A DNA stretch of 33,410 nucleotides from positions 1 to 33,410 of the forward strand of contig NZ_RCWC01000014.1 in the NCBI RefSeq assembly GCF_018448935.1. The letters run 5' to 3'. The notes below the pieces were generated by a model. That model was not told the DNA's origin, did not search any database, and saw nothing but the letters and a program-made list of their open reading frames with translations. Position numbers and translations under genes: made by a program. Origin of the DNA: Photorhabdus noenieputensis. GTDB taxonomy: Bacteria > Pseudomonadota > Gammaproteobacteria > Enterobacterales > Enterobacteriaceae. Every line of letters starts with the position of its first letter. The stretch's first letter is position 1. This document shows positions 9,649-32,669 of this stretch, piece by piece.

Positions 9649-9708
9649 ATTCCCATTAATTCAAATCTAAAATCCAGATATTTATCCAATAACAATAGGA
9701 ATTATGTT

Positions 9709-10392: not shown

Positions 10393-10409
10393 TATGGTAA
10401 ATAAAACAG

Positions 10410-11078
10410 ATGAAAACAACGAACAATATATCAGCACAGGTAATAAATACCATAAAACATAGCCATGATCCTTGGGGCATTAAAGATAAAAGCACTTGCT
10501 TTATTTATGAAAATAAAGCAATGGCTATGCTACAAGATATTCCGCTTAATTTGAACGTCGAAGGGCGTTTTGATTGTGAATTACCTTGGGCAGGAGCAAT
10601 ATTTGAAGAGCAATTTCAACGACATGACAGAACCGTCATGCGCTTGGAAAAAAGTATATGCTCATTAGAAACACATAGATTTGGCAAAGAAAAACATCTT
10701 TGTTCCTATTTCTTCGAGAAATTTCCATTTTATAATGAAAATAATGAATGTATTGGCATTATTTTTCATGGCCGGAAAGCGGAAGCGCTTTCTTTAAAGG
10801 AGTTTTTCAATGGAAAATTGCCACCTTCCATTATGTTTTGCTCTCCCTCAGATAAATTTTCTCAACAAGAGTGGGAAATTATTTTCCTATTTCTGGCAAA
10901 ACATAGCAGAAAGGAAATCAGCGAGAGACTAAATCTTCCTTATCAATCAGTAAAAGACCAGATAGAAAAAACATACCAGAAACTAAAAGTGAACTCTGAT
11001 TCTCAATTTGAGGAGTATTGTCGTATAAATAACTTTAACCTTTATATACCAGAGAGATTTTTATTTCCTTATTTATAA
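10410..11078 (+). CDS. PAS4-LuxR solo regulator 3 with altered recognition helix
   Basis: A 222-residue protein closest to regulator 2, sharing the DPWGIKDKS and IYENKAMAML segments, the SICSLETHRFGKEKH segment and an almost identical FFEKFPFYNENNECIGIIFHG. It is clearly a tandem duplicate. The LuxR half keeps the frame (SQQEWEIIFLFLAKHSRKEISERL), but the recognition helix reads LPYQSVKDQIEKTYQKLKVNS where regulator 2 has ISYRTVETHMLRIYKKIGINS, losing the conserved R-T-V. The start lacks a good Shine-Dalgarno and lies 17 bases after regulator 2, consistent with coupled translation. Confidence 0.88.
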   Translation: MKTTNNISAQVINTIKHSHDPWGIKDKSTCFIYENKAMAMLQDIPLNLNVEGRFDCELPWAGAIFEEQFQRHDRTVMRLEKSICSLETHRFGKEKHLCSYFFEKFPFYNENNECIGIIFHGRKAEALSLKEFFNGKLPPSIMFCSPSDKFSQQEWEIIFLFLAKHSRKEISERLNLPYQSVKDQIEKTYQKLKVNSDSQFEEYCRINNFNLYIPERFLFPYL

Positions 11079-12277: not shown

Positions 12278-13024
12278 TTAACTCTGCCCAGAACTTATAC
12301 GCCATAAACAGCTCCCGCCCTTCTTCTCAACTAAATCCAATCTGGATTCGTGAGCGGCAAGTTCTTCATCTGTTGCATAAATAACTTTTAATGCCGTTTG
12401 AGATCGGGTAACACGCTGTATTTCAGCAACATTCGCACCGCCAGCAATTTCCCCTTCCATTGAAAAAGCAAGAGAAGTCTGACCGCCTGTCATTATCAAA
12501 TAGACATCAGACAATATCTCGGCATCGAGTAACGCCCCATGTAAGGTTCGTTTAGAATTGTCTATATCATAACGATCACATAACGCATCAAGATTATTTC
12601 TTTTCCCCGGAAATAACCCTCTCGCAAGTTGTAAGCTATCGGTAATCTTACAGAAATCCGCAGTTGGCGGAATATCACGATCCAGCTTACCAAACTCATA
12701 ATCGATAAAGCCGATATCGAAGGGAGCATTATGGATGATCAATTCAGCGCCGCGAATAAATTCAATAAACTCATCTGCAATATCAGCAAACAACGGTTTA
12801 TCCTGCAAAAATTCATCACTGATCCCATGCACTTCAAATGCTTCAGGATCGACCAATCTATCCGGCTGAATATAGACATGAAAATGGCGTCCAGTTAAAC
12901 GACGGTTAATAACCTCTACAGCCCCAATTTCAATAATTTTGTGCCCTTCATAGTGAACACCTAATTTATTCATACCGGTAGTTTCGGTATCAAGAACAAC
13001 TTGTCGTGTAATTGCCGTGCTCAT
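12278..13024 (-). CDS. dnaQ: DNA polymerase III epsilon subunit (3'-5' proofreading exonuclease)
   Basis: A 248-residue proofreading subunit of the replicative polymerase. All catalytic residues fall at the E. coli positions: Asp12 and Glu14 (VLDTETTG), Asp103 (HNAPFDIGF), and His162 with Asp167 (LHGALLDAEIL), making it a DEDDh exonuclease. The C-terminal tail (AHESRLDLVEKKGGSCLWRI) is the segment that binds the alpha subunit. It is divergent from rnhA with only 57 bases between the two starts, so their promoters overlap as in E. coli. tRNA-Asp follows. Confidence 0.97.
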   Translation of the reverse strand: MSTAITRQVVLDTETTGMNKLGVHYEGHKIIEIGAVEVINRRLTGRHFHVYIQPDRLVDPEAFEVHGISDEFLQDKPLFADIADEFIEFIRGAELIIHNAPFDIGFIDYEFGKLDRDIPPTADFCKITDSLQLARGLFPGKRNNLDALCDRYDIDNSKRTLHGALLDAEILSDVYLIMTGGQTSLAFSMEGEIAGGANVAEIQRVTRSQTALKVIYATDEELAAHESRLDLVEKKGGSCLWRISSGQS

Positions 13025-15131: not shown

Positions 15132-16496
15132 ATGAAGACAAAAGCGATTCTGTTCGCATCTGTCTTGCTGGTTGGCTGTCAATCCGGGCCTGATTGGTCG
15201 AAGACAGCCGGACAACGGGCACAGAATTCGTCTTCAACGAATCTAAAGACAGGCAAGATGGCAGCAACTGATGATACCGATCCGCTTGCTGCCTACTGGG
15301 GAGAGGGTGATTCTGGCGCTCAGCGTGAGCTGTGGGGATACATCCGTGATGAGTTGAAGATGAAGATCCCTGATAATTACAGGGTTCGTGAACAACGAAA
15401 TTATTACTTGAAAAACAAGAGCTATCTCCACGATGTAACTTTACGGGCTGAACCGTATATGTACTGGATAGTCAGGCAGATCAAGCAACGCGATATGCCG
15501 ATGGAACTGGTACTGGTACCCATAGTGGAGAGTGCTTTTAACCCGCATGCTACCTCACGCGCCAAGGCCGCTGGTCTATGGCAGATTATCCCGGATACGG
15601 GCCGCAATTACGGTCTTACTCAGGATAAATGGTACGATGCACGCCGAGACGTTGCCGCATCAACAACGGCTGCCCTGAATCTGTTACAGCGCCTGAATAA
15701 AATGTTCAATGGCGACTGGTTATTGACTATTGCTGCTTATAACAGTGGCGAAGGCCGTGTGATGCGCGCAATGAAAGAAAACCAGATAAAAGGTAAGCCG
15801 ACAGATTTCTGGTCATTATCACTACCACGGGAGACTACGCTCTATGTGCCTAAAGTTCTGGCACTCAGTGACGTCATCCGTAATAGCGATAAATATGGCA
15901 TTACGCTGCCAAAATCCAATAACCAGCGGGCACTTGATCAAGTTGATGTTGGTCAACAAATCACGCTATCTCAAGCCGCAGAACTGGCTGGCATGTCCCT
16001 GACATCGATTAAAGCCTATAACCCTGGGTATAAGCGAGGAGTCACATCGCCTAACGGTCCACATTACATCATGCTGCCAAAGGCAAAAGTTGATCAGTTC
16101 AAAAACTCGCTGGCAAATAAAACTGTTCTAAGCAATATTCGTCAAGAAGTTGCTAAAAACAACCGCCGATTGAGTAAACAAAGCCAATATAAAGTTCGTT
16201 CAGGTGATACATTATCCGCTATTGCAAAGCGGTTTAATGTTTCCACCCGCGAATTACAACGCATGAATAATCTGAAAACCGCCAAATTGTTAAAAATTGG
16301 ACAAGTATTAAGGGTAAATAATGACAATGCCATTGTTTACCGTGTACGCCAAGGCGATTCAATTGCCAGTATTGCTAAACGTCACGGCATCAACATTAAG
16401 GATTTAATGAACTGGAACAATGGCATAAAAACAACAGATATCAAACCAGGAATTGAATTAACGCTCTATATCAATGAATATTATGATGAAGCTTAA
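15132..16496 (+). CDS. mltD: Membrane-bound lytic murein transglycosylase D
   Basis: A 454-residue lipoprotein that cleaves peptidoglycan to 1,6-anhydromuropeptides. The signal peptide MKTKAILFASVLLVGC has a lipobox with Cys16 as the lipidated residue. The SLT domain follows, with catalytic Glu133 (VPIVESAFNPHATS), AAGLWQIIPDTGRNYGL and AAYNSGEGRV. Two LysM repeats lie at about 352-395 (YKVRSGDTLSAIAKRF) and 402-446 (VYRVRQGDSIASIAKRH). Length and order are normal for MltD. It ends at a hairpin and marks the last conserved core gene before the accessory region. Confidence 0.96.
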   Translation: MKTKAILFASVLLVGCQSGPDWSKTAGQRAQNSSSTNLKTGKMAATDDTDPLAAYWGEGDSGAQRELWGYIRDELKMKIPDNYRVREQRNYYLKNKSYLHDVTLRAEPYMYWIVRQIKQRDMPMELVLVPIVESAFNPHATSRAKAAGLWQIIPDTGRNYGLTQDKWYDARRDVAASTTAALNLLQRLNKMFNGDWLLTIAAYNSGEGRVMRAMKENQIKGKPTDFWSLSLPRETTLYVPKVLALSDVIRNSDKYGITLPKSNNQRALDQVDVGQQITLSQAAELAGMSLTSIKAYNPGYKRGVTSPNGPHYIMLPKAKVDQFKNSLANKTVLSNIRQEVAKNNRRLSKQSQYKVRSGDTLSAIAKRFNVSTRELQRMNNLKTAKLLKIGQVLRVNNDNAIVYRVRQGDSIASIAKRHGINIKDLMNWNNGIKTTDIKPGIELTLYINEYYDEA

Positions 16497-16564: not shown

Positions 16565-17209
16565 TCATATTTAGTGGAATAAACCTTTGCTTATTCTTTT
16601 CGAAACCAAACGAATTGATAAACAACGCAAAGAAATCATATGATCAATTGATAAATATAACACTCAATCATTAAAATCAGATTAATTATCAACACATTAA
16701 AGTGTCAAATATACTATTTTACAAATAGCACTTAAATAATATAACAATATTATCACGATAAAAAATTAATTACTAGATTTAATGATAATTATAAAAATAT
16801 CATTGATAAACTATCACGTTTAACAAAAAATAATAAAATCACTAAAACATAATCAAGTATTTTATAAAACCTTCATATTAACAACCGATTAAAAAAACAT
16901 GACTCTATTGTCACCATTCATATTTCCATTATTTTTCATATATAAACCATCAAATTCTTGTAATATTCAAAAAGTCAGCTAGGATAGTTAACAATCAATA
17001 CCATTTACCTTGCCGAATAGTTACTTAACGTTTTAACAAATAAACCTGTTAATATCGTTATCCAGACTTTAATATAAAAAAACAGATTAATACACTATAA
17101 GAAAACAACATAAGAATAAGTACCACATGTAATATTGGCAATATACATTTCCGAGATACAGAAGAATAAACAAAAGTTCTGCCTGCTACCACAACTAAGG
17201 ACTATCATT
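16565..17209. other. AT-rich intergenic region before the dioxygenase gene
   Basis: About 645 bases, strikingly AT-rich, with many ATAAT, TTATC and A-tract motifs. There is no coding remnant or recognisable RNA. It marks the transition from core genome (mltD) to accessory DNA and presumably holds the dioxygenase promoter. AAGGA at 17197-17201 is that gene's Shine-Dalgarno. Confidence 0.4.
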
Positions 17210-18145
17210 ATGACAACATCATCAACAATGCGAACTCCAGTCAAACTACCATCAATGCCATCGGAAAGCGAAGCCTCAAAAATATATAAATCAGCAGACA
17301 TGGCGCGCTCCTATTTAGAGGGAGACAATCTTGTTTTTACTGACAGCAACGGTTTTGATCGAGCTCTCCAAGACGGTTTTTTCCTTCTGAAAGCACCATC
17401 ATATATAGATTTTGAACACGGCGATCGATTTGCATACCACTTCTTTGAACCTGCCACAGAAGGTGACCTTCGCCCCTATACTGGATTCAAATCATATACT
17501 TTTTCCAACTATTACGAAGGTTATTTCAGCAGAGAACATGATCAGTGGGAACAGTTCCGCCTCGAACGGGAACACTGGAACCTTATGCCATCAGAGGTCG
17601 CAACACTAGGTCACCATATGGCACACATCGGTATATGCGTACTGCGCTCCGTGTTAACTTATGTTGGCATTCCCCGTCGTGACTGGGAACTCGTCACCGA
17701 TGGTATTTCAGAAGGGCGAGGAAATCTGATGTTATCGTTTAACCACTTCCGCTCAGAGAAAGCCGTCCGAGGTTCTAAATTTCATCGGGATTTAGGATGG
17801 GTAACAGTTCTAAGATCGACCGAACGTGGCCTATTGGCTTACATAAATGATGAGCTTTTGGCTATTGATCCTGTTCCAGGATACCTGATCATTAACTTTG
17901 GTAGTTCGATCGAAGTGCTGACAGAAAATTTAACCCCGAATGTTCGGGCCAATGTGCATGGCGTTGTTCGTACAGAACGTAATGGGCAACCCAATAGAAT
18001 GTCGTATGTCATGTATTTAGTCAGCAATCTGGCTGGAAATATCTACAAATATGGTCCCAACGGCCCAATCAAAGTTCAATCCGTCGAAGAGTTTGTTGCC
18101 CAAGAAGTGAATCGGACATACGATGATGATAATGACGCTTTGTAG
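17210..18145 (+). CDS. Fe(II)/2-oxoglutarate dioxygenase, isopenicillin-N-synthase type
   Basis: A 311-residue oxygenase of the IPNS/plant 2OG-dioxygenase superfamily. The iron facial triad is His192-x-Asp194 (KFHRDLGWVTVL) and His250 (ANVHGVV), followed by Arg263-x-Ser265 (NRMSYVMYL), which binds the 2-oxoglutarate carboxylate. PGYLIINFGSSIEVLTEN is the strand pair before the second His. The ATG at 17210 was chosen for its AAGGA site; the frame is open 25 codons further upstream without homology. The substrate is unknown; such enzymes often tailor natural products. No biosynthetic partner is on this strand, but a duplicate of its 3' end lies at 24942-24993, linking it historically to the MFS gene at 25992. 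Confidence 0.88.
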   Translation: MTTSSTMRTPVKLPSMPSESEASKIYKSADMARSYLEGDNLVFTDSNGFDRALQDGFFLLKAPSYIDFEHGDRFAYHFFEPATEGDLRPYTGFKSYTFSNYYEGYFSREHDQWEQFRLEREHWNLMPSEVATLGHHMAHIGICVLRSVLTYVGIPRRDWELVTDGISEGRGNLMLSFNHFRSEKAVRGSKFHRDLGWVTVLRSTERGLLAYINDELLAIDPVPGYLIINFGSSIEVLTENLTPNVRANVHGVVRTERNGQPNRMSYVMYLVSNLAGNIYKYGPNGPIKVQSVEEFVAQEVNRTYDDDNDAL

Positions 18146-18189
18146 ATATTTTCTGCACAATAAATCGGGGTTATAACGCAGACTTGAGC

Positions 18190-18368: not shown

Positions 18369-19550
18369 TCATGACGTGGATTTACGATTTATTAAAATAA
18401 CCACAATTATAGTTGAAAAAACACCTATAAATGTTGTAAAAAAAACGATGCTTATGGAAAAAAGATAAGATATTGTGGAACCTATCAAAGGGCCAATAAA
18501 CATGGAAAAACCAACAGAAATTGACGTTAAGCCAAATATTTTAGCCGAGTTATCATTAGTTGCGAATTTCTGCATATAAATGGTAACAATAATATTATTC
18601 ATCGACGATCCTATTCCTATTATTGCCATTGCTAAAAATATAAAAAATAAATTGATTTTATCAGGAAATAAATCGTTAAATTGATTTGTTATTCCTATTA
18701 AAAGATACCCCATTCCCCACAAAAAGAATGAAAATAACATAATATTTAAAGATATGTTAATCCTATACTTTCCAAATACTAAACCAATTAAAACACCTGA
18801 AACACCAGAAAGACACATAGCAAAACTATAATGACTGCCATTTAATCCCTGCTCCATAAAGCTAAGAGCTATTAAGCTATCTGATAGATAACCAAAACAC
18901 GTTAAAGTGGAAATAACAATAAATGAAAACAATATTTTATTATCTTTCATTATATTAAAGTAATTAATTAATGATATCTTGTTTTTTTTGCGATTAACAT
19001 TGATCAACGGTTCTGAAACAAAAACATACAAGACTGCTGAAATAAAATAAAGGATTGATATTAAAATAAGAATCTGTTTTGTTGAGTAATAAATGAGAAT
19101 AAAACCTAAAAATAACGGGGCCGACATTTTATATATTTGAAATAAAACCTGCCAATAACTAAAGTTTTTTTCAAATTGATTGGTTGATATGTTTTTTAAT
19201 ATTTTAAAATTAGAAGGTCCTAAAAATAAACGAAGGATATTTTTAATAAAAGAATAAAGAATATATATATTAATGTCATCAATATTGTATTGAAAAGTGG
19301 TAATAACACCGCAAAGTACCGAAATGATAATAATGTACTTTTTTGGTTTTATATTTTCATCTACAAATGACGAAACATAGGGCGTTAGAAATAGTAATGA
19401 TGCAGCATATGAAATTGTATATAACGATGCGTATATCGCTCCGCCGTTCCAGTGATATGTGATTAACGTGAATGATATTATCATCTCCAAATACAAGGTG
19501 AAAGAATTTCCTGAGGAGGCTAATATTAATTTGCGAAATTCTTTATCCAT
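18369..19550 (-). CDS. MFS transporter, probable exporter of the peptide/nucleotide cluster
   Basis: A 393-residue integral membrane protein with about 12 hydrophobic helices (for example FIVISTLTCFGYLSDSLIAL and LFFIFLAMAIIGIGSSMNNI) and a polar central loop (EPLINVNRKKNKISLINYFN), an MFS layout similar to small-drug and natural-product exporters. The start has a strong GGAGGA site. It is the last gene of the minus-strand cluster, 45 bases after the kinase gene, so it probably exports the product and confers self-protection (inferred). The coding sequence is very AT-rich, with many Ile, Asn, Lys and Phe codons, unlike the core genes nearby. Substrate motifs are not recognisable. Confidence 0.8.
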   Translation of the reverse strand: MDKEFRKLILASSGNSFTLYLEMIISFTLITYHWNGGAIYASLYTISYAASLLFLTPYVSSFVDENIKPKKYIIIISVLCGVITTFQYNIDDINIYILYSFIKNILRLFLGPSNFKILKNISTNQFEKNFSYWQVLFQIYKMSAPLFLGFILIYYSTKQILILISILYFISAVLYVFVSEPLINVNRKKNKISLINYFNIMKDNKILFSFIVISTLTCFGYLSDSLIALSFMEQGLNGSHYSFAMCLSGVSGVLIGLVFGKYRINISLNIMLFSFFLWGMGYLLIGITNQFNDLFPDKINLFFIFLAMAIIGIGSSMNNIIVTIYMQKFATNDNSAKIFGLTSISVGFSMFIGPLIGSTISYLFSISIVFFTTFIGVFSTIIVVILINRKSTS

Positions 19551-19595
19551 TATTTTCCTCCAACTAAAATAGCCTCAGCAAATACATCATTTGTA

Positions 19596-20270
19596 TTAAT
19601 TACATTTTTTCAGTATTTCAACCCGAATAATATCCACTATTGATTTAATTACTGCATCTTTAGTTAAAGTGTCAGTATCAATAATTTTCCAAGTATCATC
19701 ATAAAACGTCTGGTATTGATTAAGAACGTGTTTTTGATATTCTATAAAATCATATTTTTCATTTGTCTCTAATTTTCCAGATTCACTAGGTTTTAATATT
19801 TTCTTCCTTTTTTCAGCAATATTTGGAGGAACATCAAGATATATCACCATGTCTGGTTTTGTATTTATTGATAGAACCGATTTACTTAATTTTGCTAATT
19901 CCGTGGATTTAAGTAAGAATCTTGCCAAATATTTATAATACCAACTATCACATATAATAATTTTACCTTGTAATAAACAAGGTTGAATAATTAAACTATC
20001 TAAAACAGCAAACCATGATGCTATCAATAGAATCCAATGCCGGTCACCAAGTTCACCCAATGGAGCTGAAATGTCATAATCCCAAAGGAGATCTCGTATT
20101 TTTCCCATGTGATACATACTATACCCAGATGGCAGTAAAGGATAATTCTTATCTAAAAAAACAATATTATTATAATCTAGAGATAAAATATCATAAACTT
20201 CGCGTGAAATTGTTGATTTACCGGCACCATCATTTCCTTCAAAAGCTATAAATAAACCGCGTCTAATCAT
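19596..20270 (-). CDS. Thymidylate-kinase-like P-loop kinase
   Basis: A 224-residue P-loop kinase. The Walker A is FEGNDGAGKST (residues 10-20), in the exact position and context of thymidylate kinase. IIICDSWYYKYLAR resembles the DR[YW] motif but has Ser in place of Arg, and RKKILKPSESGK may be the lid. The core tmk gene is normally elsewhere and about 210 residues long, so this is a specialised paralogue. It may phosphorylate a nucleotide or another intermediate. The start MIRRGLF overlaps the end of the radical SAM gene by 8 bases; an ATG five codons upstream is possible. A much longer frame running back into that gene is not the real start. Confidence 0.8.
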   Translation of the reverse strand: MIRRGLFIAFEGNDGAGKSTISREVYDILSLDYNNIVFLDKNYPLLPSGYSMYHMGKIRDLLWDYDISAPLGELGDRHWILLIASWFAVLDSLIIQPCLLQGKIIICDSWYYKYLARFLLKSTELAKLSKSVLSINTKPDMVIYLDVPPNIAEKRKKILKPSESGKLETNEKYDFIEYQKHVLNQYQTFYDDTWKIIDTDTLTKDAVIKSIVDIIRVEILKKCN

Positions 20271-21396
20271 TTCTTTTTTCCCCATAGTACGCTTCAGTAT
20301 CAAGTGAATTTCTACCACTACCGATAATAAATGGTTTAAATCCATATTTTTGATATAATTTGTGCATCTCAACATATGTTTTATAAATATCTTCAAAAAT
20401 AGGTCTAGAGTGATTTTGATATTCAGAACCATGATCGGGATGAAAGACTGCTATTGCTGGAACTATGCCATTTTTTGAAAAAAATTCCATTCCTTGTACT
20501 AAATCATTTAAAGGTTCTAATCCCGCTACAAACCCAACATAAACATTGCCTTCACCTAACTCTGAAACAGCAGCCAAGTATGCTTCTAATAGATTATTTC
20601 TCCCATAGTCCTGAGATTTACCAGGACATATCTGATCAAATAATTTAGGATTAAATATTTCTAAACTAATAGCCCAGCTATCAACAAACTCAGAAATTCC
20701 CTTTATTTTATTTAGATCTCTAGGGGGCATTGATATTAGATGACTGTTAAGGTTGTTTTTTTCACAAAAAGGCTTTAAAGAAACTAATAATTGTTTGTGC
20801 ATTTCAAAACCAATATCATAATTACGAGTTGTACCACCATTGATGAGTATTCTTTTATATCTACTAATGTTATTAGCTTCTATTACATTCATAACTTCAA
20901 TTACCTTTGACGGTCTAATAGACTTTTTATGATCTGATAAACTATTTCTAGCTTCACCTAATGAACAAAATTTACACTGACGGCCATCATTAAAATAATA
21001 ACAATGCCCTGGAGAGAAAAAACCCAAAGTTGTGTCACCGTACACCGTGACGTATTCTTCTACTCTACTGCCATCTAAAAGTTCTATACCATATATATCA
21101 GGTTTAATAGGAAATATAACTTTAAACAAAATGTTACCGGCTTTTATATAAAAATCCCCATTTTTATATATTAAATCATAATCAGAACTTTCATTATAAT
21201 TACAAGCAATAATTGTACCATCTTCTAAAATAACCTCTTGAGGTACAGAATATGTTGTTTCTAATTTAGAGCTATCACTTGTTCCATACGCCCTTCTTTT
21301 AGGGATAAAATTTCGTTTACTGTATTCACATATCACGTTTTTATCATATTTTAATCCAGAACATAATACTCTAATTTTTAATTCTATAGTGTTCAT
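20263..21396 (-). CDS. Radical SAM enzyme with CX8CX2C cluster motif
   Basis: A 377-residue protein. The candidate iron-sulphur ligands are Cys132, Cys141 and Cys144 in GHCYYFNDGRQCKFCSLGEAR. The CKFC plus aromatic pattern is radical SAM-like, but the spacing is CX8CX2C where the usual spacing is CX3CX2C. GGTTRNYD (about residues 197-204) fits the SAM-binding glycine stretch, and later NP.LFDQICPGKSQDYGR and FVAGLEPLND resemble the barrel of Elp3/MoaA-type enzymes. The first 120 residues are an unassigned N-terminal domain. It starts 2 bases after the phosphatase gene and overlaps the kinase gene, so it is tightly co-translated. Reaction unknown; it probably modifies a peptide or nucleotide. 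Confidence 0.82.
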   Translation of the reverse strand: MNTIELKIRVLCSGLKYDKNVICEYSKRNFIPKRRAYGTSDSSKLETTYSVPQEVILEDGTIIACNYNESSDYDLIYKNGDFYIKAGNILFKVIFPIKPDIYGIELLDGSRVEEYVTVYGDTTLGFFSPGHCYYFNDGRQCKFCSLGEARNSLSDHKKSIRPSKVIEVMNVIEANNISRYKRILINGGTTRNYDIGFEMHKQLLVSLKPFCEKNNLNSHLISMPPRDLNKIKGISEFVDSWAISLEIFNPKLFDQICPGKSQDYGRNNLLEAYLAAVSELGEGNVYVGFVAGLEPLNDLVQGMEFFSKNGIVPAIAVFHPDHGSEYQNHSRPIFEDIYKTYVEMHKLYQKYGFKPFIIGSGRNSLDTEAYYGEKRND

Positions 21397-21398
21397 TT

Positions 21399-22244
21399 TT
21401 ATACCCTCATTAATTCTAATATTGTATCCCCTGCACTTTTAGAAGAAACAGCTATGATTGCTTTTTTCTCAAAAAATAAAGAATTTGTAGGTGATAGGAT
21501 ATTATAACTATTTCCATCACGAGTCATTATGTATCCTCCTGATTCCTCAAGGATTAGTTTAGCTGCTGCTATATCTACACAACGCTCGTGACCCATAAGT
21601 GATAAATCTAAGAATGCATGTAGAACACCACTAGCGATCAGGCATATATCTAAACTTGAACAAGATGAGATTCTTACTTTATTTGCTTCATTAATAATTT
21701 TATTCTGAACCTCTGTATATTGATTATTTCTCGCCCTATGAAATGATACTCTCAAATCGTTTAGTTGAAATGAGGGGTTTGTATATATTCGCTTGCTGGC
21801 ATATATGCTTTGTATATAAGAACCTTCTCCCAATGATGCTTTATATATAATGTCTCTTGGAATATCATATACCCAGCCCATAATATATCTATCATTCTTG
21901 TAAACAGCTATTGATGTAGTATAGGCAGGATAACCCATAAGCAAGTTATGAGTACCATCAATAGGATCAATTAGTAAGGAAACCTTATCTTTAATATTTA
22001 CAGATTGTGATTCAGAATCGTCTTCTGAAATAATGGTGACCTTGAGTTCTGATTTATCCAAGTGCTCGTAAATTATATTATTTAAAATGAGATCTATTTC
22101 TACTGTTTCGCCATGATATTTGTTATCATATCCGATATGAATAGTGGAAAGCTTAGCAAGCCATATTCTACGAATCTCTTCTCTAAGTTTGTGAAGGTGT
22201 ATTTCTAAATAATTACTAACTTCATTACTGAATACATACCTCAT
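21399..22244 (-). CDS. Inositol-monophosphatase-family phosphatase
   Basis: A 281-residue member of the Mg-dependent IMPase/FBPase superfamily. The metal-site motifs are complete: Glu74 in ISEDD, Asp93 and Asp96 in LIDPIDGTHN, and Asp224 in CVDIAAAKLILEESGG. The family removes phosphate from inositol phosphates, 3'-phosphoadenosine phosphates (CysQ) or sugar and nucleotide phosphates, so a nucleotide or ribosyl phosphate substrate fits the context (inferred). Its start overlaps the preceding gene by ATGA, and the radical SAM gene follows after 2 bases. Confidence 0.88.
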   Translation of the reverse strand: MRYVFSNEVSNYLEIHLHKLREEIRRIWLAKLSTIHIGYDNKYHGETVEIDLILNNIIYEHLDKSELKVTIISEDDSESQSVNIKDKVSLLIDPIDGTHNLLMGYPAYTTSIAVYKNDRYIMGWVYDIPRDIIYKASLGEGSYIQSIYASKRIYTNPSFQLNDLRVSFHRARNNQYTEVQNKIINEANKVRISSCSSLDICLIASGVLHAFLDLSLMGHERCVDIAAAKLILEESGGYIMTRDGNSYNILSPTNSLFFEKKAIIAVSSKSAGDTILELMRV

Positions 22245-23263
22245 GTGACATTATCTCCCAAATAGATGAGTTTTTTATGCCAATCCTCGGCTGTTAAATA
22301 TGCTATTGTCTTTTTTACATCGAATAATCTACCTGCATAAATTGCATAATCTGACGATGAAAATGCCCCTAACGTTTTTGGGGAAAATGATACTTTATAT
22401 ATTTTCGATTTATACCCAACTAAATTTACAAGCATCTTGTAAGCTAACTGAATGCTGCCTCCTGTATAGGATTTATCAATTATCAGCCAACTTTCGTTTT
22501 CTTTTCCTTTAAATTTTGGGTATATTTCATTGAATAATTTTCTTTTATGCAGTAAACCACTATCATTTTCACGATGTATTTCGCAGAAGTATATATTTTT
22601 GTCCAGTGTTTTTGCATGATAAGATAACGCAAGAGGGATTCCCCCCGAAATAATAAATAATTTATTTTTAGCTATCGTAGAAATCTTATCCCATAGGTAA
22701 TGATCTTGGTAAATGTTTTCTATGTTTAATGTGGGGCAAGTTTCCAATGAAAATAAATTAATACTTTTACTGTATTCGTAACGAAACTCATCATATAAAT
22801 CAATTGTTTTTTGTGGAGCATCCTTTAATTTTACCGATTTATCAAGCCCTCTTGAATATATTAATTCTAATTTATTTGTTATTCCTTTGTTTATTATTTC
22901 GGATAGGATTTTTCCTTTATTCATTTTTAACTCGCATAGTTCAGTACCATATAAGGCTAATTCTGGATCTAAGCCATATCCATTTACTAAGTTACCTATA
23001 TCAGAGGTAAGTTTATTTATATTTAAATAATCGACTAGTTCATCCCAAATGTGTATTATTTCAGTACTTGATAATCTTGATATAGGTGATGATAAATTAC
23101 TTAAGTCCATTAACATTTCTTCTGCATCGCGGAGATAAAATATTGTTTCTTGTAATTGGCATCCATTATTTATTTGGTTCAAATATTCTTGAAAATTATT
23201 GGTTTTGGTTCCCTTTAATGTTCTCCAGCAGTGGTGCTTACTTATAATCTTTATTCTTTCCAT
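22241..23263 (-). CDS. Phosphoribosyltransferase-like protein with novel N-terminal region
   Basis: A 340-residue protein. The C-terminal half resembles type I phosphoribosyltransferases: a hydrophobic strand plus loop (LFIISGGIPLALSY, about residues 202-215, as the PPi loop) and WLIIDKSYTGGSIQLAY (259-275) in place of the PRPP signature, where Asp263 is kept but the second acidic residue is Lys264. The first 150 residues match nothing I recognise. If active it would attach ribose 5-phosphate to a base or other acceptor using PRPP. The Lys substitution leaves activity open. GGGGGGA lies ahead of the ATG. It is second of the enzyme genes, 23 bases after the nucleotidyltransferase and overlapping the phosphatase by ATGA. 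Confidence 0.7.
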   Translation of the reverse strand: MERIKIISKHHCWRTLKGTKTNNFQEYLNQINNGCQLQETIFYLRDAEEMLMDLSNLSSPISRLSSTEIIHIWDELVDYLNINKLTSDIGNLVNGYGLDPELALYGTELCELKMNKGKILSEIINKGITNKLELIYSRGLDKSVKLKDAPQKTIDLYDEFRYEYSKSINLFSLETCPTLNIENIYQDHYLWDKISTIAKNKLFIISGGIPLALSYHAKTLDKNIYFCEIHRENDSGLLHKRKLFNEIYPKFKGKENESWLIIDKSYTGGSIQLAYKMLVNLVGYKSKIYKVSFSPKTLGAFSSSDYAIYAGRLFDVKKTIAYLTAEDWHKKLIYLGDNVT

Positions 23264-23286
23264 TGCATTCCCCCCATATGCATTAT

Positions 23287-24327
23287 TTATGCTAATGCCC
23301 CTAGCCTTTCGAATTCCGATATGTAAAAATTAGCATTTGTATTAGTTATTCCAAGTTTTTTCAATTCTGAAACAACTTCAAATTCTGTTTTTTCATTATC
23401 TATTACTAACCAAACTTTATATGCATCTGAATTAATTTCACATAATGCTTTTTTTGCGAAAAGTATTAATTTCCCATCCTTACTCAAGACTCTATACCAT
23501 AAATTTTTTATTATTGGTTTATTATTTCCATCTGATAATGAAATGTCGGATGTATTAGCTATTCTTTTTTTTGCAAAAGATACATTGTAACCAAAAAGAT
23601 CTTTCCCTTGACAATAGTCTAAAGTTAATTGCCACATTTTAGCAACTGAGTTTATGTAATCAATTGTTGAAATATCATTAATTACATTAAACTTTGAACA
23701 AACCATCAAGTATATAGATGTTATTGGATGGTCTTTTCCAAACACTTTCATTGCATTTTGATAGCGCCACTTTATTAAAGTGGATGTGTTTTCACTTGAA
23801 GCCAAAATATAATCCATTGCTGAATTAGCTGTTCGTTCAAAGTTGAATGCTGCTGATATTAAGTCATTATTTAAAATATTTCCAATCCCATCGGAAAAAC
23901 ACTTTTCTCCAAAGCTTTTTGCTTTGGTCTTAAGTATTTCACATAATTTAGTCTTATTTATGTCCCCTTTCAATTTGTTAAAATTATTTGATTTTATAAT
24001 CGCTTCCCCTGTTAACATCCTATGAGATAAATGTAATTTATACCAATCGGAATTTGAACCTCCATTGTTGATTATCTTCATGATTTCTTTTATCTCTTTT
24101 AAAGAGATTATTGTCACTTCTAACATTCCTATATCGGATGGCATAAATATCTCTTCGCATTCTATTTCCAGTTCTCTTTCCAATATAACATAGACATCAT
24201 AATCAGATTTTGGTGTTGCAAACCCTTCAATGACTGAGCCTGACAAGTAGCAAGTATACAGATCAGTATCATTAAATCTTTTATTTATTATTACTGTTAT
24301 TTCCCTTTTTACGTTAATAATGTCCAT
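23287..24327 (-). CDS. Pol-beta-type nucleotidyltransferase fused to a PqqD-like (RRE) domain
   Basis: A 346-residue two-domain protein. Residues 25-50 carry the minimal nucleotidyltransferase signature: G30-S31, then Asp42 and Asp44 in GFATPKSDYDVYVIL, with a likely third carboxylate around EVTII. The middle is helical. Residues 277-346 follow the PqqD/RiPP-recognition-element pattern: a beta-strand start (YRVLSKDGKLILFA), EINSDAYKVWLVIDNEKTEFEVVSEL, then an amphipathic helix ending FERLGALA, as in PqqD (L-N-x-T-A...W..IDG..T..E....F...L...G.L). Such domains hold precursor-peptide leaders, so this enzyme may transfer a nucleotide to the peptide encoded at 24496-24404. It is the first enzyme gene of the operon. 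The RRE call is by pattern only. Confidence 0.75.
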   Translation of the reverse strand: MDIINVKREITVIINKRFNDTDLYTCYLSGSVIEGFATPKSDYDVYVILERELEIECEEIFMPSDIGMLEVTIISLKEIKEIMKIINNGGSNSDWYKLHLSHRMLTGEAIIKSNNFNKLKGDINKTKLCEILKTKAKSFGEKCFSDGIGNILNNDLISAAFNFERTANSAMDYILASSENTSTLIKWRYQNAMKVFGKDHPITSIYLMVCSKFNVINDISTIDYINSVAKMWQLTLDYCQGKDLFGYNVSFAKKRIANTSDISLSDGNNKPIIKNLWYRVLSKDGKLILFAKKALCEINSDAYKVWLVIDNEKTEFEVVSELKKLGITNTNANFYISEFERLGALA

Positions 24328-24362
24328 GTTTTACCTTTTATCTTATAAATGAAAGAACAAAT

Positions 24363-24398
24363 AAAGGAATAAAGGTCATGGTATACCTCTATTCCTTT
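24363..24398 (-). terminator. Hairpin between precursor-peptide gene and enzyme genes
   Basis: In the minus-strand RNA, AAAGGAATAGAGGT (24398-24385) pairs with ACCTTTATTCCTTT (24376-24363), 14 pairs with one G-U, around an 8-base loop. The corresponding plus-strand hairpin has an A-C mismatch. It starts 5 bases after the peptide stop codon. Placed like this, it would stabilise or partly terminate transcription, giving more peptide than enzymes. Confidence 0.75.
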
Positions 24399-24403
24399 TC
24401 CTA

Positions 24404-24496
24404 TTAATTAGGGGATGAATTCATTAAACCATTATCATAGTTCAATATTTCATCATCAGTCAGTGGTCTAAATGCTTGCGCTGTTATCACATTCAT
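24404..24496 (-). CDS. 30-residue peptide gene, candidate RiPP precursor
   Basis: A short gene encoding 30 residues beginning MNVITAQAF, with an acidic centre (TDDE then IL) and ending GLMNSSPN. AGGAG lies 6 bases before the ATG (24503-24507), an ideal ribosome site and better than those of most genes here. It precedes a six-gene same-strand operon whose first enzyme carries a peptide-recognition-like domain, and a strong hairpin follows the stop at once, the classic layout of a modified-peptide precursor. A C-terminal Asn recalls microcin C, where the last Asn carries the nucleotide, but there is no MccB-like enzyme and the resemblance may be chance. It matches no precursor I know. Confidence 0.7.
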   Translation of the reverse strand: MNVITAQAFRPLTDDEILNYDNGLMNSSPN

Positions 24497-24507
24497 TGTA
24501 TACTCCT

Positions 24508-24941: not shown

Positions 24942-24993
24942 CGGATATACAATAATAATAATGCTTTGTAGATATTTTCTACGCAATAAATCG
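24942..24993 (+). pseudogene. Fragment of the dioxygenase gene 3' end
   Basis: It repeats 18113-18167, the last codons, stop and first downstream bases of the dioxygenase gene: GCTTTGTAGATATTTTCT is identical and the flanks match closely. Only about 50 bases survive. It follows the MFS fragment by 22 bases in the same orientation, so an MFS-then-dioxygenase gene pair appears to have collapsed here. Confidence 0.82.
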
Positions 24994-25031: not shown

Positions 25032-25376
25032 TCAGGCATATGAGAATGGATTTTTAATCACCAAGATGTCTTCCAACATCTGCCCGTGATTCATGTCTTC
25101 ACTATAGAGCGCCCGACAACCTGCGATAACCGCAGTCGCCACAATACAAGAATCGTAGAATGACAAGTGATAACGCTTTGCAATAAACCTAGCTCGGTCA
25201 TAAACTTCAACTGTAAGAGGTACGATTTTGCAAAAACTACGTACAATATCGAGGAACTCCGCTATCTCTTCCCAACTCATCTTAAGTTTACGCACACACA
25301 CGTGCGCCACATCTTGGGACAGCAGGTACAGCACCACATTGCTGTCGATGAAACCGCAAGACTTAGCCCCTGTCAT
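25032..25376 (-). CDS. PIN-domain ribonuclease toxin (VapC-like)
   Basis: A 114-residue PIN-domain protein. The first acidic residue is in GFIDSNVVLYLLS, the middle Glu lies in PLTVEVYDRARFIAKRYHLSFYDS, where Asp of FYDSCIVATA is the next ligand, and SEDMNHGQML supplies the last. VapC toxins cleave tRNA or rRNA using Mg. The ATG giving MTGAKSCGFIDS has GAG at a good distance; starting three codons earlier is also possible, but the longer upstream frame runs through the antitoxin gene. It overlaps the antitoxin by 14 bases, normal for such pairs. Confidence 0.87.
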   Translation of the reverse strand: MTGAKSCGFIDSNVVLYLLSQDVAHVCVRKLKMSWEEIAEFLDIVRSFCKIVPLTVEVYDRARFIAKRYHLSFYDSCIVATAVIAGCRALYSEDMNHGQMLEDILVIKNPFSYA

Positions 25377-25596
25377 TCGCTTCATCTCTACTGAACTTGA
25401 AATCTGCCAGCAACTTACCGCGGAATGTCCGAAGACGCTCCAACAACACCTCAGAGCCAGGCTTCTTGCATATTGAGAAGGTACGCGGATCATCCACTAC
25501 AATCTCAATATTATCACCTTCACTCAATTCCAGAATTTCAACTAAGCTAGCCGACAGACGTATAGCAAGACTATTACCCCATTTTGTTACTTGCAT
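25363..25596 (-). CDS. AbrB/MazE-type antitoxin
   Basis: A 77-residue protein whose N-terminus MQVTKWGNSLAIRLSASLVEILELSEGD is a textbook SpoVT/AbrB swapped-hairpin DNA-binding domain. The rest (RLRTFRGKLLADFKFSRDEAND) is the toxin-binding tail. The ribosome site is a perfect AGGAGG. It precedes and overlaps the PIN toxin. The pair probably represses its own promoter through the inverted repeat just upstream. Confidence 0.88.
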   Translation of the reverse strand: MQVTKWGNSLAIRLSASLVEILELSEGDNIEIVVDDPRTFSICKKPGSEVLLERLRTFRGKLLADFKFSRDEANDRG

Positions 25597-29663: not shown

Positions 29664-29692
29664 TTGTGCCGTAAAAGTGATAGCCTTACATC
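29664..29692 (+). promoter_or_regulatory. Promoter-like block of PAS4-LuxR array gene A
   Basis: TTGTGC (29664-29669), a 17-base spacer and TACATC (29687-29692) recur at equal spacing before gene B (TTGCAT, TACATA) and gene D (TTGTGT, TACATG). The spacer core AAAAGTGATA is also conserved. Conservation and 17-base spacing fit a sigma-70 promoter, although the -10 boxes are weak. Confidence 0.55.
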
Positions 29693-29697
29693 GAAGT

Positions 29698-29761
29698 TTT
29701 TACTGTTTTACTGTTTTACTGTTTTACTGTTTTACTGTTTTACTGTTTTACTGTTTTACTG
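29698..29761 (+). repeat. Octanucleotide tandem repeat (TTTTACTG)x8 in the leader of gene A
   Basis: Eight perfect copies of TTTTACTG lie between the promoter-like block and the start codon of the first gene of the second LuxR array. The sister genes have only CAGTTTTAC remnants here (for example CAGTTTTACTGCC before gene C), so the tract grew from an ancestral single unit. Such tracts gain and lose units by slipped-strand mispairing. Confidence 0.95.
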
Positions 29762-29783
29762 TTTAATCATGATGGATAAAATT

Positions 29784-30506
29784 ATGAAAGATAAAACTAC
29801 GAATTTCTCTGTAAATAAAGATCTGGATGTTCATTCAGAAAGCTTTGATGCCTTCATATCATACATGGAAAACAGCAACGATTTTTGGGTTATAAAAGAT
29901 AGCGAATCTCGATTCGTCTATGCTAACGATGTTGCGTTTTATTACAGCGGTCTTCCTAAGGGCTTTAATATAGAAGGGAGGTTTGATAGTGAATGTCCAG
30001 CACCGTGGTCTGAGTTTGAAGATATTATACAAACTAATGAAAGAAACGTAAGGGTTAATCAAAAGACCATCCCAGTACTAGACACTTTCATTTATGGGGG
30101 GAGAGAAAAAATAATCCAGCAATTTCTAGTCGATGTTACACCGCTAATGAAGGATGGAAAATGCATTGGGATAGTAGCTCATGGTAAAAAACTTCAAATT
30201 TATTCCATGTATCATTTTGAAAACAACAAACATCCTGACACATTAATTTTTGGCACACCAACTGATTTATTTACTAATAGAGAGTTCGATATAATATTTT
30301 TTGCTTTGCAATCACTAAGCGCTAAAGATATAGCTAAAAAATTAGGTATTACCTATAGAACAGTACAAAGCAGGTTACAATTTATTTATCAAAAAATAGG
30401 GATAAATTCATTAAGCCAGTTAAAAGAATATTGCAGGAATAAAGGGTATGATCATTATGCGCCTACCCGATGTATTAACCCTAATCTCTATATACCTCTA
30501 GCATAA
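29784..30506 (+). CDS. PAS4-LuxR solo regulator A (second array)
   Basis: A 240-residue PAS4-LuxR protein. The start MKDKTTNFSVNKDLDVHS was chosen because all four array members share it and have an AGGT/GGAT site before it; a longer open frame through the tandem repeat is an artefact of repeat phase. The PAS_4 sensor (about residues 25-165) includes NDFWVIKDSESRFVYAND, GFNIEGRFDSECPAPW and MKDGKCIGIVAHGKKL. The LuxR-type C-terminus is TNREFDIIFFALQSLSAKD followed by IAKKLGITYRTVQSRLQFIY and QKIGINSLSQLKEYC. The DNA-binding half is almost invariant across the array while the sensor varies. A hairpin follows, so it is probably monocistronic. Ligand unknown. Confidence 0.92.
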   Translation: MKDKTTNFSVNKDLDVHSESFDAFISYMENSNDFWVIKDSESRFVYANDVAFYYSGLPKGFNIEGRFDSECPAPWSEFEDIIQTNERNVRVNQKTIPVLDTFIYGGREKIIQQFLVDVTPLMKDGKCIGIVAHGKKLQIYSMYHFENNKHPDTLIFGTPTDLFTNREFDIIFFALQSLSAKDIAKKLGITYRTVQSRLQFIYQKIGINSLSQLKEYCRNKGYDHYAPTRCINPNLYIPLA

Positions 30507-30534
30507 CAATGAATCACACCGCCGCTGTTCCATT

Positions 30535-30557
30535 AGGGTTCTGCCAAGCAGAGCCCT
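30535..30557 (+). terminator. Hairpin after gene A
   Basis: AGGGTTCTGC (30535-30544) pairs with GCAGAGCCCT (30548-30557), 10 pairs with one G-U, 28 bases past the stop. It is followed by ATTCTTC. A related hairpin follows gene C, but the copy after gene B is degraded. Confidence 0.6.
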
Positions 30558-31065
30558 ATTCTTCGTCCAAAACCCACTTAACAGCACTAAGGACAGCTTT
30601 ATAGACTATAGCAGTATGTTAGTCCCGACGCCTAAAAGCTCCTGTACACCTCTGTTAGCTATTTTCAACGTGCCTTTAATCACAATAACTTCCATGCAAC
30701 ATCAGTAAAATCGTAGCGAACTATGAAATTATTTTGCTACTCGGTTATAAACAAGAGCGAAAATCAATACACAAATCATATTCCTGCATTTCATGAAACC
30801 AATTATATGATCTCACATTCCATCCAGAATATTTTATATTGAAATTATTGATTTGTAATATAATTGATAATGGGAAATTTAAAACAAAATGAAATATTAG
30901 CATATTGAAGATGGTTACAGGAAACTTGCTCTTCTGTAAAATCGTCCACACCAAAGAGAACCCTCCTTTGAAATTCACAAACACGACTACTCATTGCATC
31001 ATAAAAATGATAACCTTACATAGAAGTTATTCCAGTTTTACAGTTCAATCATGATAGGTGAAATT
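30558..31065 (+). promoter_or_regulatory. Intergenic region and promoter-like block before gene B
   Basis: About 500 bases. The second half repeats the region upstream of genes A and D (AACAAGAGCGAAAATCAAT; CACATTCCATCCAGAATAT), and TTGCAT (30994-30999), a 17-base spacer and TACATA (31017-31022) is the gene B copy of the shared promoter-like block. The first half shows nothing recognisable. AGGTG before the ATG at 31066 is the ribosome site. Confidence 0.5.
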
Positions 31066-31788
31066 ATGAAAGATAACACGATGAGTTTCTCTGTAAACAA
31101 AGATCTGGATGTTCATTCAAAAAGCTTTGATGCTTTCATTTCATATATGGAAAATAGTAACGATTTTTGGATCATAAAAGATAGCGAATCTCGATTCGTT
31201 TATGCTAATGATATTACTCATTATTACTGCAACCTACCCAAGGGTTTTAATATGGAAGGTAGGCTTGATATTGAATGTCCAGGACCCTGGGTTGAGTTTG
31301 TAGATATTATACAAGCCAATGATAGAAACGTAATGACTAATCAAAAAACCATTCCAGTATTAAACACCTTCATTTATGGTGGGAAACAAAAAATAATCCA
31401 ACCACTTCTAGTCAATATTACCCCTCTAATGAAGGACGGAAAATGCATTGGGGTTGTTGGGCACGGTAAAAAACTCCAAATTTATTCTATGTACCATTTT
31501 GAAAATAACAGGCATCCTGACTCATTAACTTTTGGAACACCAACTGATTTATTTACTGATAGAGAGTTCGATATAGTATTTTTTGCTTTGCAATCGCTAA
31601 GCGCTAAAGATATAGCGAGAAAATTAGGTATCACCTATAGAACGGTACAAAGCAGGCTACATGTCATTTATCAGAAAATAGGGATAAATTCATTAAACCA
31701 GTTAAAAGAATATTGCAGGGGTAAGGGATATGATAACTATGCTCCTACCCGATTTATTAACCCTAATCCCTATATACCTCTAGTATAA
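31066..31788 (+). CDS. PAS4-LuxR solo regulator B (second array)
   Basis: A 240-residue paralogue of regulator A, with the start MKDNTMSFSVNKDLDVHS preceded by AGGTG. Sensor differences from A cluster in residues 50-90 (ITHYYCNLPKGFNMEGRLDIECPGPWVEFVDII) and 100-125 (NTFIYGGKQKIIQPLLVNITPL). The output domain is almost identical (FFALQSLSAKDIARKL, GITYRTVQSRLHVIYQKIG), with a LHVIY variant in the recognition helix. The downstream hairpin copy is degraded (AGGGTTCTTCC with no partner), and gene C follows with 158 bases between, so B and C are probably co-transcribed. Confidence 0.92.
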   Translation: MKDNTMSFSVNKDLDVHSKSFDAFISYMENSNDFWIIKDSESRFVYANDITHYYCNLPKGFNMEGRLDIECPGPWVEFVDIIQANDRNVMTNQKTIPVLNTFIYGGKQKIIQPLLVNITPLMKDGKCIGVVGHGKKLQIYSMYHFENNRHPDSLTFGTPTDLFTDREFDIVFFALQSLSAKDIARKLGITYRTVQSRLHVIYQKIGINSLNQLKEYCRGKGYDNYAPTRFINPNPYIPLV

Positions 31789-31946
31789 CAATGAACCACA
31801 CCGTTATCGTCATTACGCAATTAGGGTTCTTCCTAAAAAGCCATATTCCCCTCAAAAACCCTCTTAACAGCAAAAAAAGCAATTTTGTAAGCTACCCCAT
31901 ATGGAAATTATTACAGTTTTACTGCCTAATTATGATGGATAAGATT

Positions 31947-32669
31947 ATGAAAGATAAGACTATGAGTTTCTCTGTAAACAAAGATCTGGATGTTCATTCA
32001 AAAAGCTTCGACGCCTTTATTTCATACATGGAGAATTGTAATGAGTTCTGGTATATAAAAGATAAAGAGTCGAGATTTATCTATATGAATGATTATGGAC
32101 TTCATCATAGCGGACTACCCAAAGGGTTTAATGTTGAAGGTAAACTGGATAGTGAATGTCCGGTTTATTGGTCTGAGGTTGCTGACATTATTCAATCTAA
32201 TGATCGTAGAGTGATAGAAGAAAAAAAAGTCATTCCTACTTTGATTACATTTATGTATGGCGGTAGGGATAAAATTATTCAACCATTTATGGCGGATGTC
32301 ACGCCTTTGATAAAAGATGGAGAGTCGATTGGCGTAGTAGGCAGAGCTAGGAAGCTAGAGGTTTTTTCAATGTATCATATGGAAATTAATAAACCTCCTG
32401 AATCATTATCATTTGGCAACCCAACTGAAATTTTTACAGATAGAGAGTTCGATATAGTATTTTTTGCTTTGCAGTCACTAAGCGCTAAAGATATAGCGAG
32501 AAAATTAGGTATTTCATACAGAACGGTCCAAAGTAGGTTACAATTTATTTATCAAAAAATAGGGATAAATTCATTAAGCCAGTTAAAAGAATATTGCAGG
32601 GGTAAGGGATATGATAATTATGCTCCCACCCGATTTATTAACCCGAATCCCTATATACCTCTAGTATAA
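31947..32669 (+). CDS. PAS4-LuxR solo regulator C (second array)
   Basis: A 240-residue paralogue with the most diverged sensor of the array: NEFWYIKDKESRFIYMNDYGLHHSGLPKGFNVEGKLDSE is changed at many sites, and ADVTPLIKDGESIGVVGRARKLEVFSMYHMEINK replaces the usual KCIGVVGHGKK and HFENN. The cysteine in that strand is lost. The output domain is again nearly identical (DREFDIVFFALQSLSAKDIARKL, ISYRTVQSRLQFIYQKIGINS). The start is the family MKDKTMSF; an upstream frame in the B-C spacer is not supported. A hairpin follows. Confidence 0.92.
   Translation: MKDKTMSFSVNKDLDVHSKSFDAFISYMENCNEFWYIKDKESRFIYMNDYGLHHSGLPKGFNVEGKLDSECPVYWSEVADIIQSNDRRVIEEKKVIPTLITFMYGGRDKIIQPFMADVTPLIKDGESIGVVGRARKLEVFSMYHMEINKPPESLSFGNPTEIFTDREFDIVFFALQSLSAKDIARKLGISYRTVQSRLQFIYQKIGINSLSQLKEYCRGKGYDNYAPTRFINPNPYIPLV

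Follow-up and report, generated by a model that had tools for sequence, protein, structure and literature searches.

What does the seven-gene operon described here make, and is the very short gene at its head part of the product? The operon lies in a stretch of 33,410 nucleotides from Photorhabdus noenieputensis (assembly GCF_018448935.1, contig NZ_RCWC01000014.1, positions 1 to 33,410), termed the window. An earlier note, made from the sequence alone, had read positions 18369 to 24496 as an undescribed operon for a ribosomally synthesized and post-translationally modified peptide (RiPP) bearing a nucleotide-derived or ribosylated group. Our own reading, held tentatively and a little short of even confidence, is of a horizontally acquired, antibiotic-like operon in which a core of enzymes would make an unusual nucleotide, a nucleotidyltransferase with a C-terminal tail would transfer it to a 30-residue peptide, and an MFS protein would export the conjugate. 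The elements concerned are the following.

24503..24507, minus strand: Shine-Dalgarno sequence AGGAG of the peptide gene
24404..24496, minus strand: 30-codon gene for a precursor-like peptide of 30 amino acids (aa), MNVITAQAFRPLTDDEILNYDNGLMNSSPN
24363..24398, minus strand: 14-bp hairpin directly 3ʹ of the peptide stop codon, an attenuator or 3ʹ-end stabiliser
23287..24327, minus strand: nucleotidyltransferase of the aminoglycoside nucleotidyltransferase (ANT) type, with a PqqD-like C-terminus at 23287-23535
22241..23263, minus strand: phosphoribosyltransferase (PRTase)-like protein with the loop DK(S/A)YTGGS
21399..22244, minus strand: phosphatase of the inositol monophosphatase (IMPase)/fructose bisphosphatase (FBPase) family (Pfam Inositol_P)
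20263..21396, minus strand: radical SAM enzyme, variant family NF045502 (NCBIfam)
19596..20270, minus strand: nucleotide kinase resembling deoxythymidine monophosphate (dTMP) kinase, 224 aa, its start set by comparison
18369..19550, minus strand: predicted MFS exporter (Pfam MFS_1)

All seven open reading frames (ORFs) were found on the minus strand at or very near the positions in the earlier note, with gaps of at most 76 bases between neighbours and two overlapping gene pairs, which confirms its picture of one strand with overlaps or small gaps. Five other Photorhabdus loci share this gene order (L007, L008, L019, L028 and the partly deleted L009), and two more Photorhabdus copies are deleted remnants (L029 in genome G295 and L030 in G298). 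In G014 (locus L004), a genome of another genus in the same family, all six large genes stand in the same order at 41-64% identity, the PRTase-like gene containing a stop. Scanning one genome per species for either of two exact radical SAM peptide patterns returned 14 loci, 4 from Photorhabdus and 10 from Pseudomonas (L010-L018 and L020). The co-occurrence elsewhere to which the earlier note had looked is therefore found for the seven genes in other Photorhabdus loci and G014, and for a core of five enzymes in the ten Pseudomonas loci. Comparison with G014 and Pseudomonas corrected one boundary, placing the kinase start at 20270, so that the gene shares its first 8 nt with the end of the radical SAM gene. 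A longer kinase ORF (19596-20432) was rejected as the gene, as nothing in G014 or Pseudomonas corresponds to its extra 54 codons.

The 30-codon peptide frame is a real gene under purifying selection. This is evident from the six Photorhabdus copies with a complete frame, among whose 15 pairs synonymous divergence is 0.10-0.44 and nonsynonymous divergence 0.03-0.08 (about 19 synonymous sites each). Two of the six start with GTG, and four lie in broken operons. Altogether the gene is present in all eight Photorhabdus copies examined; the remnants of G295 and G298 retain its start, the former lacking the usual stop and the latter being truncated. A ribosome site occupies the same place throughout (GGAG or GGGG in the other five Photorhabdus copies printed and GGAGG in G014). 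The region of the hairpin that follows the stop has a fold z of -3.24 in the window, -3.93 in L028 and -4.74 in L004, where a hairpin of different sequence holds the same position after the peptide. The G014 peptide, MNKECLVPFRMLDKQESADFNNGRADSLSNGE, has 32 residues and lies in the corresponding place (L004:12092-12190, minus strand); in an alignment it shares with the Photorhabdus peptides F-R-x-L, a Glu and [YF][DN]NG at nearly equal spacing. A constrained 30-codon gene heading the operon supplies the ribosomal precursor linked to modifying enzymes that a RiPP system calls for; the modification itself is predicted. The conserved short peptide that the earlier note had expected upstream of the nucleotidyltransferase is accordingly found in the eight Photorhabdus copies and probably in G014, but not in the ten Pseudomonas loci.

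The nucleotidyltransferase scores just under threshold in Pfam (Polbeta, 24.2 versus 26.9) and has weak ANT(9) and MntA matches in NCBIfam; the top Foldseek matches of its low-confidence model, 3c18 and ANT enzymes, are suggestive. Its tail was compared with a model made from 39 PqqD domains collected from loci retrieved with PF05402. The tails of seven enterobacterial nucleotidyltransferases, that of G014 included, ranked as the top 7 of 437 distinct ORF C-termini from 37 loci, with scores of 6.4-10.4 bits against 5.5 for the best unrelated C-terminus. Among 5000 shuffled tails (4153 with a reported score), one reached 9.2 bits and six reached 6.4. Three whole Pseudomonas nucleotidyltransferases gave 2.0 bits, -0.7 bits and, in one case, no reported score. 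That the enterobacterial tail is PqqD-like, as the earlier note had proposed, is supported but not proven by these rankings, its scores lying below all curated thresholds. Both enterobacterial lineages with the peptide carry the tail, and the Pseudomonas lineage has neither. Peptide and tail occur together, which fits a tail that reads the peptide.

The other enzymes are better placed, with the exception of the PRTase-like protein, which had no Pfam, PDB family or structure match. Its loop DK(S/A)YTGGS is the same in 12 of 12 aligned sequences, and the alignment scored 24.5 against a PRTase profile in hhalign, above all 60 shuffles (at most 18.3), with the loop placed on the phosphoribosyl pyrophosphate (PRPP) loop of genuine PRTases. 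In single-sequence searches the 12 gave E values of only 0.005-0.14 (0.14 for that of the window). The PRPP loop usually has a second acidic residue at a position where all 12 have Lys. The label phosphoribosyltransferase-like in the earlier note keeps the profile evidence on its side and lacks a family or structural one; a Foldseek run on the model (predicted local distance difference test, pLDDT, 44) gave a meaningless result and was set aside. The remaining families named in that note were matched solidly. The phosphatase matches Inositol_P at E 2.4e-33 and the exporter MFS_1 at E 1.6e-23. The radical SAM enzyme scores 259.3 bits against the NF045502 cut-off of 125 (319.4 bits for Pseudomonas L010), with weaker similarity to MSMEG_0568 and LipS2, and its cysteines, C-x8-C-x2-C (C132, C141, C144), are invariant in 13 of 13 aligned sequences. 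Membership in NF045502 does not give the reaction, because the family is broad (a match at E 1e-30 in 88 of 398 genomes of the phylum, the window's own included). The kinase matches Thymidylate_kin solidly at E 1.5e-13; since it scores 56.7 bits for TIGR00041, under the dTMP-kinase cut-off of 83.25, it is read as nucleotide kinase-like with a substrate that may differ from dTMP. A second radical SAM gene of the window's genome (G000:C1 near 50.1 kb; 25% identical and, by eye, beside a nitrilase-like gene) was considered as a paralogous cluster and rejected, there being no like operon around it.

In Pseudomonas the order is nucleotidyltransferase, MATE exporter (8 of 10 loci), PRTase-like protein, phosphatase, radical SAM enzyme and kinase. 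The MATE gene is cut short in L016 and absent from L010 and L011; its identity comes from a hidden Markov model scan in L014 and from position and likeness by eye elsewhere. The last four proteins are 39-48% identical to those of the window. The nucleotidyltransferases are 21-23% identical in the eight aligned (L015 and L011, whose 5ʹ part is not in frame, being omitted) and lack the C-terminal tail. No peptide gene was detected before the nucleotidyltransferase, either by eye in nine loci or by model in all ten; the inspection by eye omits L015, whose contig has little upstream sequence. Besides a different exporter, the enterobacterial additions to the core are the peptide and the tail. The simplest reading of the tail is that it presents the peptide for nucleotidyl transfer. 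The radical SAM enzyme is part of the conserved nucleotide core, outside what is specific to the peptide, so its substrate is more likely to be a nucleotide or sugar than the peptide. A RiPP-specific role for it was rejected, as it is kept in the peptide-less Pseudomonas core. The RiPP logic of the earlier note survives in the constrained peptide gene linked to a PqqD-like tail, and its argument from precursor plus radical SAM enzyme is weakened.

How the operon decays bears on which genes serve protection. Every frame is open in only two of the nine enterobacterial copies surveyed (eight Photorhabdus and G014), namely the window and L028 of genome G300; the other seven are broken. The PRTase-like gene has a single in-frame stop at codon 36 in P. 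heterorhabditis (L007 7134-8156), 176 in P. asymbiotica (L008 7132-8154) and 188 in G014 (L004 9967-10968), the other large genes there being open. In P. thracensis (L019) the radical SAM gene is frameshifted, and large deletions affect P. bodei (L009), G295 (L029) and G298 (L030). Over the seven copies, breaks fall on the PRTase-like gene six times, the radical SAM gene four, the nucleotidyltransferase and phosphatase three each, the peptide twice, the MFS gene once and the kinase not at all. The kinase is open in all eight Photorhabdus copies, with nonsynonymous/synonymous ratios of 0.06-0.22 in the pairs printed. A pattern in which biosynthesis disappears but the kinase and exporter persist would fit a self-toxic product against which protection is maintained, though the numbers are small and the draft genomes may contain errors. 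As a separate observation, the MFS gene of G298 (L030 8779-9957) is 99.7% identical to that of the window, compared with 96% for the kinase, which suggests recent exchange.

In the scheme that we favor, the five-enzyme cassette would make and transfer an unusual nucleotide. The enterobacterial nucleotidyltransferase would hold the peptide by its PqqD-like tail, probably via the conserved FRxL...E stretch, and would place the nucleotide on the C-terminal part, where the conserved [YF][DN]NG is followed by a Ser/Asn-rich segment. The chemical steps, like the product, are ones that we infer. Ribosyl transfer or exchange would come first; the radical SAM enzyme would then alter the sugar or base, the phosphatase would trim, and the kinase together with a house-keeping nucleoside diphosphate kinase would phosphorylate. 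Nucleotidyl transfer to the peptide and export of the conjugate by the MFS protein would follow. A bolder form of this proposal, which we consider possible although doubtful, is that the operon represents a second, MccB-independent route to peptide-nucleotides. An ANT-type enzyme would have gained a peptide-reading tail, converting a stand-alone nucleotide-antimetabolite cassette like that of Pseudomonas into one for a ribosomal peptide that bears a non-canonical nucleotide, with the kinase and exporter as protection that is kept when biosynthesis dies. If so, a pathway for a free nucleotide-type antibiotic would have come to yield a ribosomal peptide conjugate through the gain of a single domain and a tiny gene, and the Pseudomonas operon would be a natural peptide-less control. 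Peptide nucleotidylation would also have a new enzyme type, and there would be a new compound class to seek in Photorhabdus.

Several observations weigh against a peptide-nucleotide conjugate. The tail was not named by Pfam, NCBIfam or PDB profile searches, and its hhalign score against three Pseudomonas PqqDs (13.9) is no higher than the top score among 60 shuffles (14.0). The link between peptide and tail is a matter of two lineages versus one. The AlphaFold models of the nucleotidyltransferase and the PRTase-like protein are poor (pLDDT 43 and 44), and the PRTase assignment is weak, coming down to essentially one loop. A peptide model made from Photorhabdus only gives the G014 peptide 3.8 bits (E 7.7 in 3765 small ORFs), and eight chance ORFs outrank it, although for a single ORF P is about 0.002. 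The G014 peptide is probably a counterpart, weak as the likeness is by sequence alone; its position, ribosome site and hairpin carry the remaining argument. No leader-removing protease was recognised among the seven products in Pfam or NCBIfam. Moreover, since the Pseudomonas loci have no detectable peptide, the nucleotide part works without one, and the ancestral product may have been something other than a peptide. The earlier note had named operons consistently lacking the peptide as grounds for abandoning its view. In none of the ten Pseudomonas loci was a peptide detected, whereas the enterobacterial lineages keep it, and for the latter the proposal of a peptide with a nucleotide-derived group is partly supported by the co-occurrence of peptide and tail.

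The same Pseudomonas loci lend themselves to an explanation that is unlikely in our estimate but deserves the most attention among the alternatives: a nucleoside or nucleotide antibiotic whose structure contains no peptide, the nucleotidyltransferase acting on a small molecule and the peptide being a translated leader that tunes transcription with the hairpin directly after it. There is precedent in the genus, as Photorhabdus makes 4ʹ-thiothymidine with a radical SAM enzyme and a nucleoside kinase (available part of PMC12691670). Against this, conservation of the peptide as a protein extends as far as its C-terminus, its gene shows no run of a regulated codon, and the PqqD-like tail would have no role. 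The tail and the short conserved peptide, which has no obvious bioactive core, would both be accommodated if the peptide were a carrier on which a small molecule is built, cut off and exported free, as with TglA in 3-thiaglutamate synthesis (accessible text of PMC9016710), and Pseudomonas seems to export the product of the same core without a peptide. This we regard as improbable; neither an aminoacyl-adding enzyme nor a protease was recognised among the seven products. The aminoacyl-adding enzyme expected for such a route is of the peptide aminoacyl-tRNA ligase (PEARL) type.

Hardly more credit, and perhaps a shade less, is given to a self-protective nucleotidyltransferase that inactivates a toxic product, as aminoglycoside nucleotidyltransferases do drugs, while the other enzymes make the toxin. 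The resemblance of its low-confidence model to ANT enzymes and 3c18 might be taken that way, as might the weak ANT(9) and MntA matches. Yet in G295 and G298 the nucleotidyltransferase has gone with the biosynthetic genes and the kinase and exporter have stayed, which points to the kinase or exporter as the protection. Finally, it is very improbable that the operon is the 4ʹ-thiothymidine cluster or a close copy, for all that it shares with that cluster a genus and the pairing of a radical SAM enzyme with a nucleotide kinase. In P. asymbiotica the cluster comprises three genes, thmA-C, with neighbours that vary between species, according to the portion of PMC12691670 available. In P. asymbiotica DSM 15149, a gene for a 254-aa deoxynucleoside kinase adjoins one for a 300-aa radical SAM enzyme with a CxxxCxxC motif (G940:C1 near 1.198 Mb), by adjacency very probably thmB-thmA. 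This pair lies on a different contig from the operon, and no dNK match rose above the Pfam cut-off in the window's genome. With the probable thm genes elsewhere in the P. asymbiotica genome, the operon is separate from that cluster.

The operon is rare and probably horizontally acquired, the five-enzyme cassette having moved between lineages. At E 1e-20 the radical SAM enzyme has a match in 2 of 295 genomes of the family (the window's own included) and in 7 of 12 of the genus, the other five having none. The PRTase-like protein and the nucleotidyltransferase match in 1 of 299 and 1 of 345 genomes, respectively, in each case only their own. An alignment of the radical SAM enzyme found 4 of 369 genomes of the class, the three besides the window's own being weak (E 3e-21 to 7e-16). 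No relative was found in viral contigs scanned with the radical SAM and PRTase-like alignments, and no plasmid match to the PRTase-like protein or nucleotidyltransferase. Plasmid matches to the radical SAM enzyme came from 416 records, all below 60% identity, with an MSMEG_0568 annotation in 32 of 40 among the matches listed; a Streptomyces plasmid match (21%) has another neighbourhood, and one phage record matched at 23.6%. G+C is 0.27-0.32 in the operon kilobases; of 11 other kilobases profiled, 9 are at 0.40-0.47 and 2 at 0.30-0.31. The six Pseudomonas operons measured have 0.41-0.44 versus 0.59-0.65 in their flanks, and the G014 operon 0.32 versus 0.54-0.60.

The best plasmid match to the radical SAM enzyme (30%) lies on an Agrobacterium pusense plasmid (NZ_CP123353.1, L037 6723-14383), in a set of genes that differs from the operon's: a B12-binding radical SAM enzyme, an NF045502 radical SAM enzyme, NUDIX, GalE and an MFS exporter. 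It is a possible further nucleotide-sugar natural-product cluster. Around the operon itself, the window holds these additional features.

18126..18167, plus strand: 42-nt direct repeat, the 3ʹ end of a flanking 2-oxoglutarate (2OG)-dependent oxygenase gene
24952..24993, plus strand: second copy of the 42-nt repeat (88%), an apparent remnant of a second oxygenase copy
12278-13024: dnaQ-like exonuclease, named by inference from Pfam domains
15132-16496: mltD-like gene, likewise named by inference from Pfam domains

One window oxygenase copy (17135-18145) has a Pfam match, and the other is apparently only the 42-nt tail. In L028 the operon is flanked, by eye, by two full-length 2OG-Fe(II) oxygenase copies (822-1754 and 9659-10594), and inspection by eye of the ORFs listed for L004 and L010 showed no 2OG oxygenase. 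The oxygenase pair may be a trace of the operon's entry or of a site of recombination; a tailoring role for the oxygenase is another possibility. PAS4-LuxR regulators stand in groups of three on each side of the operon (window 8959-11078 and 29664-32669). A PIN-domain protein with a small AbrB-like ORF upstream, noted by eye (window 25032-25596), also lies beside the operon in L028 (15-699) and perhaps forms a toxin-antitoxin pair. We take G300 to resemble P. laumondii TT01, in which case the operon would sit near the end of the plu0914-plu0938 island. That genomic island of TT01 lies not far from dnaQ (available part of PMC2530875).

A literature search found no published description of this gene set, in keeping with the earlier note's view that no characterised system has it; the nearest was the 4ʹ-thiothymidine cluster, a separate locus. 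Among broader families, NF045502 and the MSMEG_0568-type enzymes are approached through a radical SAM score well over the cut-off, but the neighbourhood is different. With RiPP systems that use PqqD or RiPP recognition element (RRE) domains the operon shares a precursor-like peptide and, probably, a modifying enzyme to which a PqqD-like domain is fused; in the operon, however, the domain lies under curated thresholds and the peptide-specific part does not include the radical SAM enzyme. The Pseudomonas core operons have the five enzymes in the same relative order but differ in their exporter (MATE in eight of the ten and none in the other two, not MFS), their tailless nucleotidyltransferase and the lack of a detectable peptide. 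With thmA-C the operon shares the logic of a Photorhabdus nucleoside antibiotic, a radical SAM enzyme plus a nucleotide kinase, whereas that cluster, as far as the available part of PMC12691670 describes it, has another locus, another radical SAM motif, a dNK kinase, nucleoside triphosphatase immunity and no peptide.

The closest functional parallel is microcin C (mccABCDE), which, in the portion of PMC6495379 available, also combines a very short peptide gene, a hairpin, a nucleotide-adding enzyme and a pump; nucleotide addition to the peptide by the operon's enzyme is, for its part, predicted. The peptides differ in length (30 residues versus 7 in microcin C). No ThiF, MccE- or MccF-like family was found among the Pfam and NCBIfam matches of the seven products, and where microcin C has MccB, the operon has no MccB/ThiF-type enzyme but an ANT-type nucleotidyltransferase with a PqqD-like tail. 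Unlike microcin C, it would also carry its own enzymes for making a non-standard nucleotide. By this comparison, the operon would work like the microcin C system but would not be a member of it.

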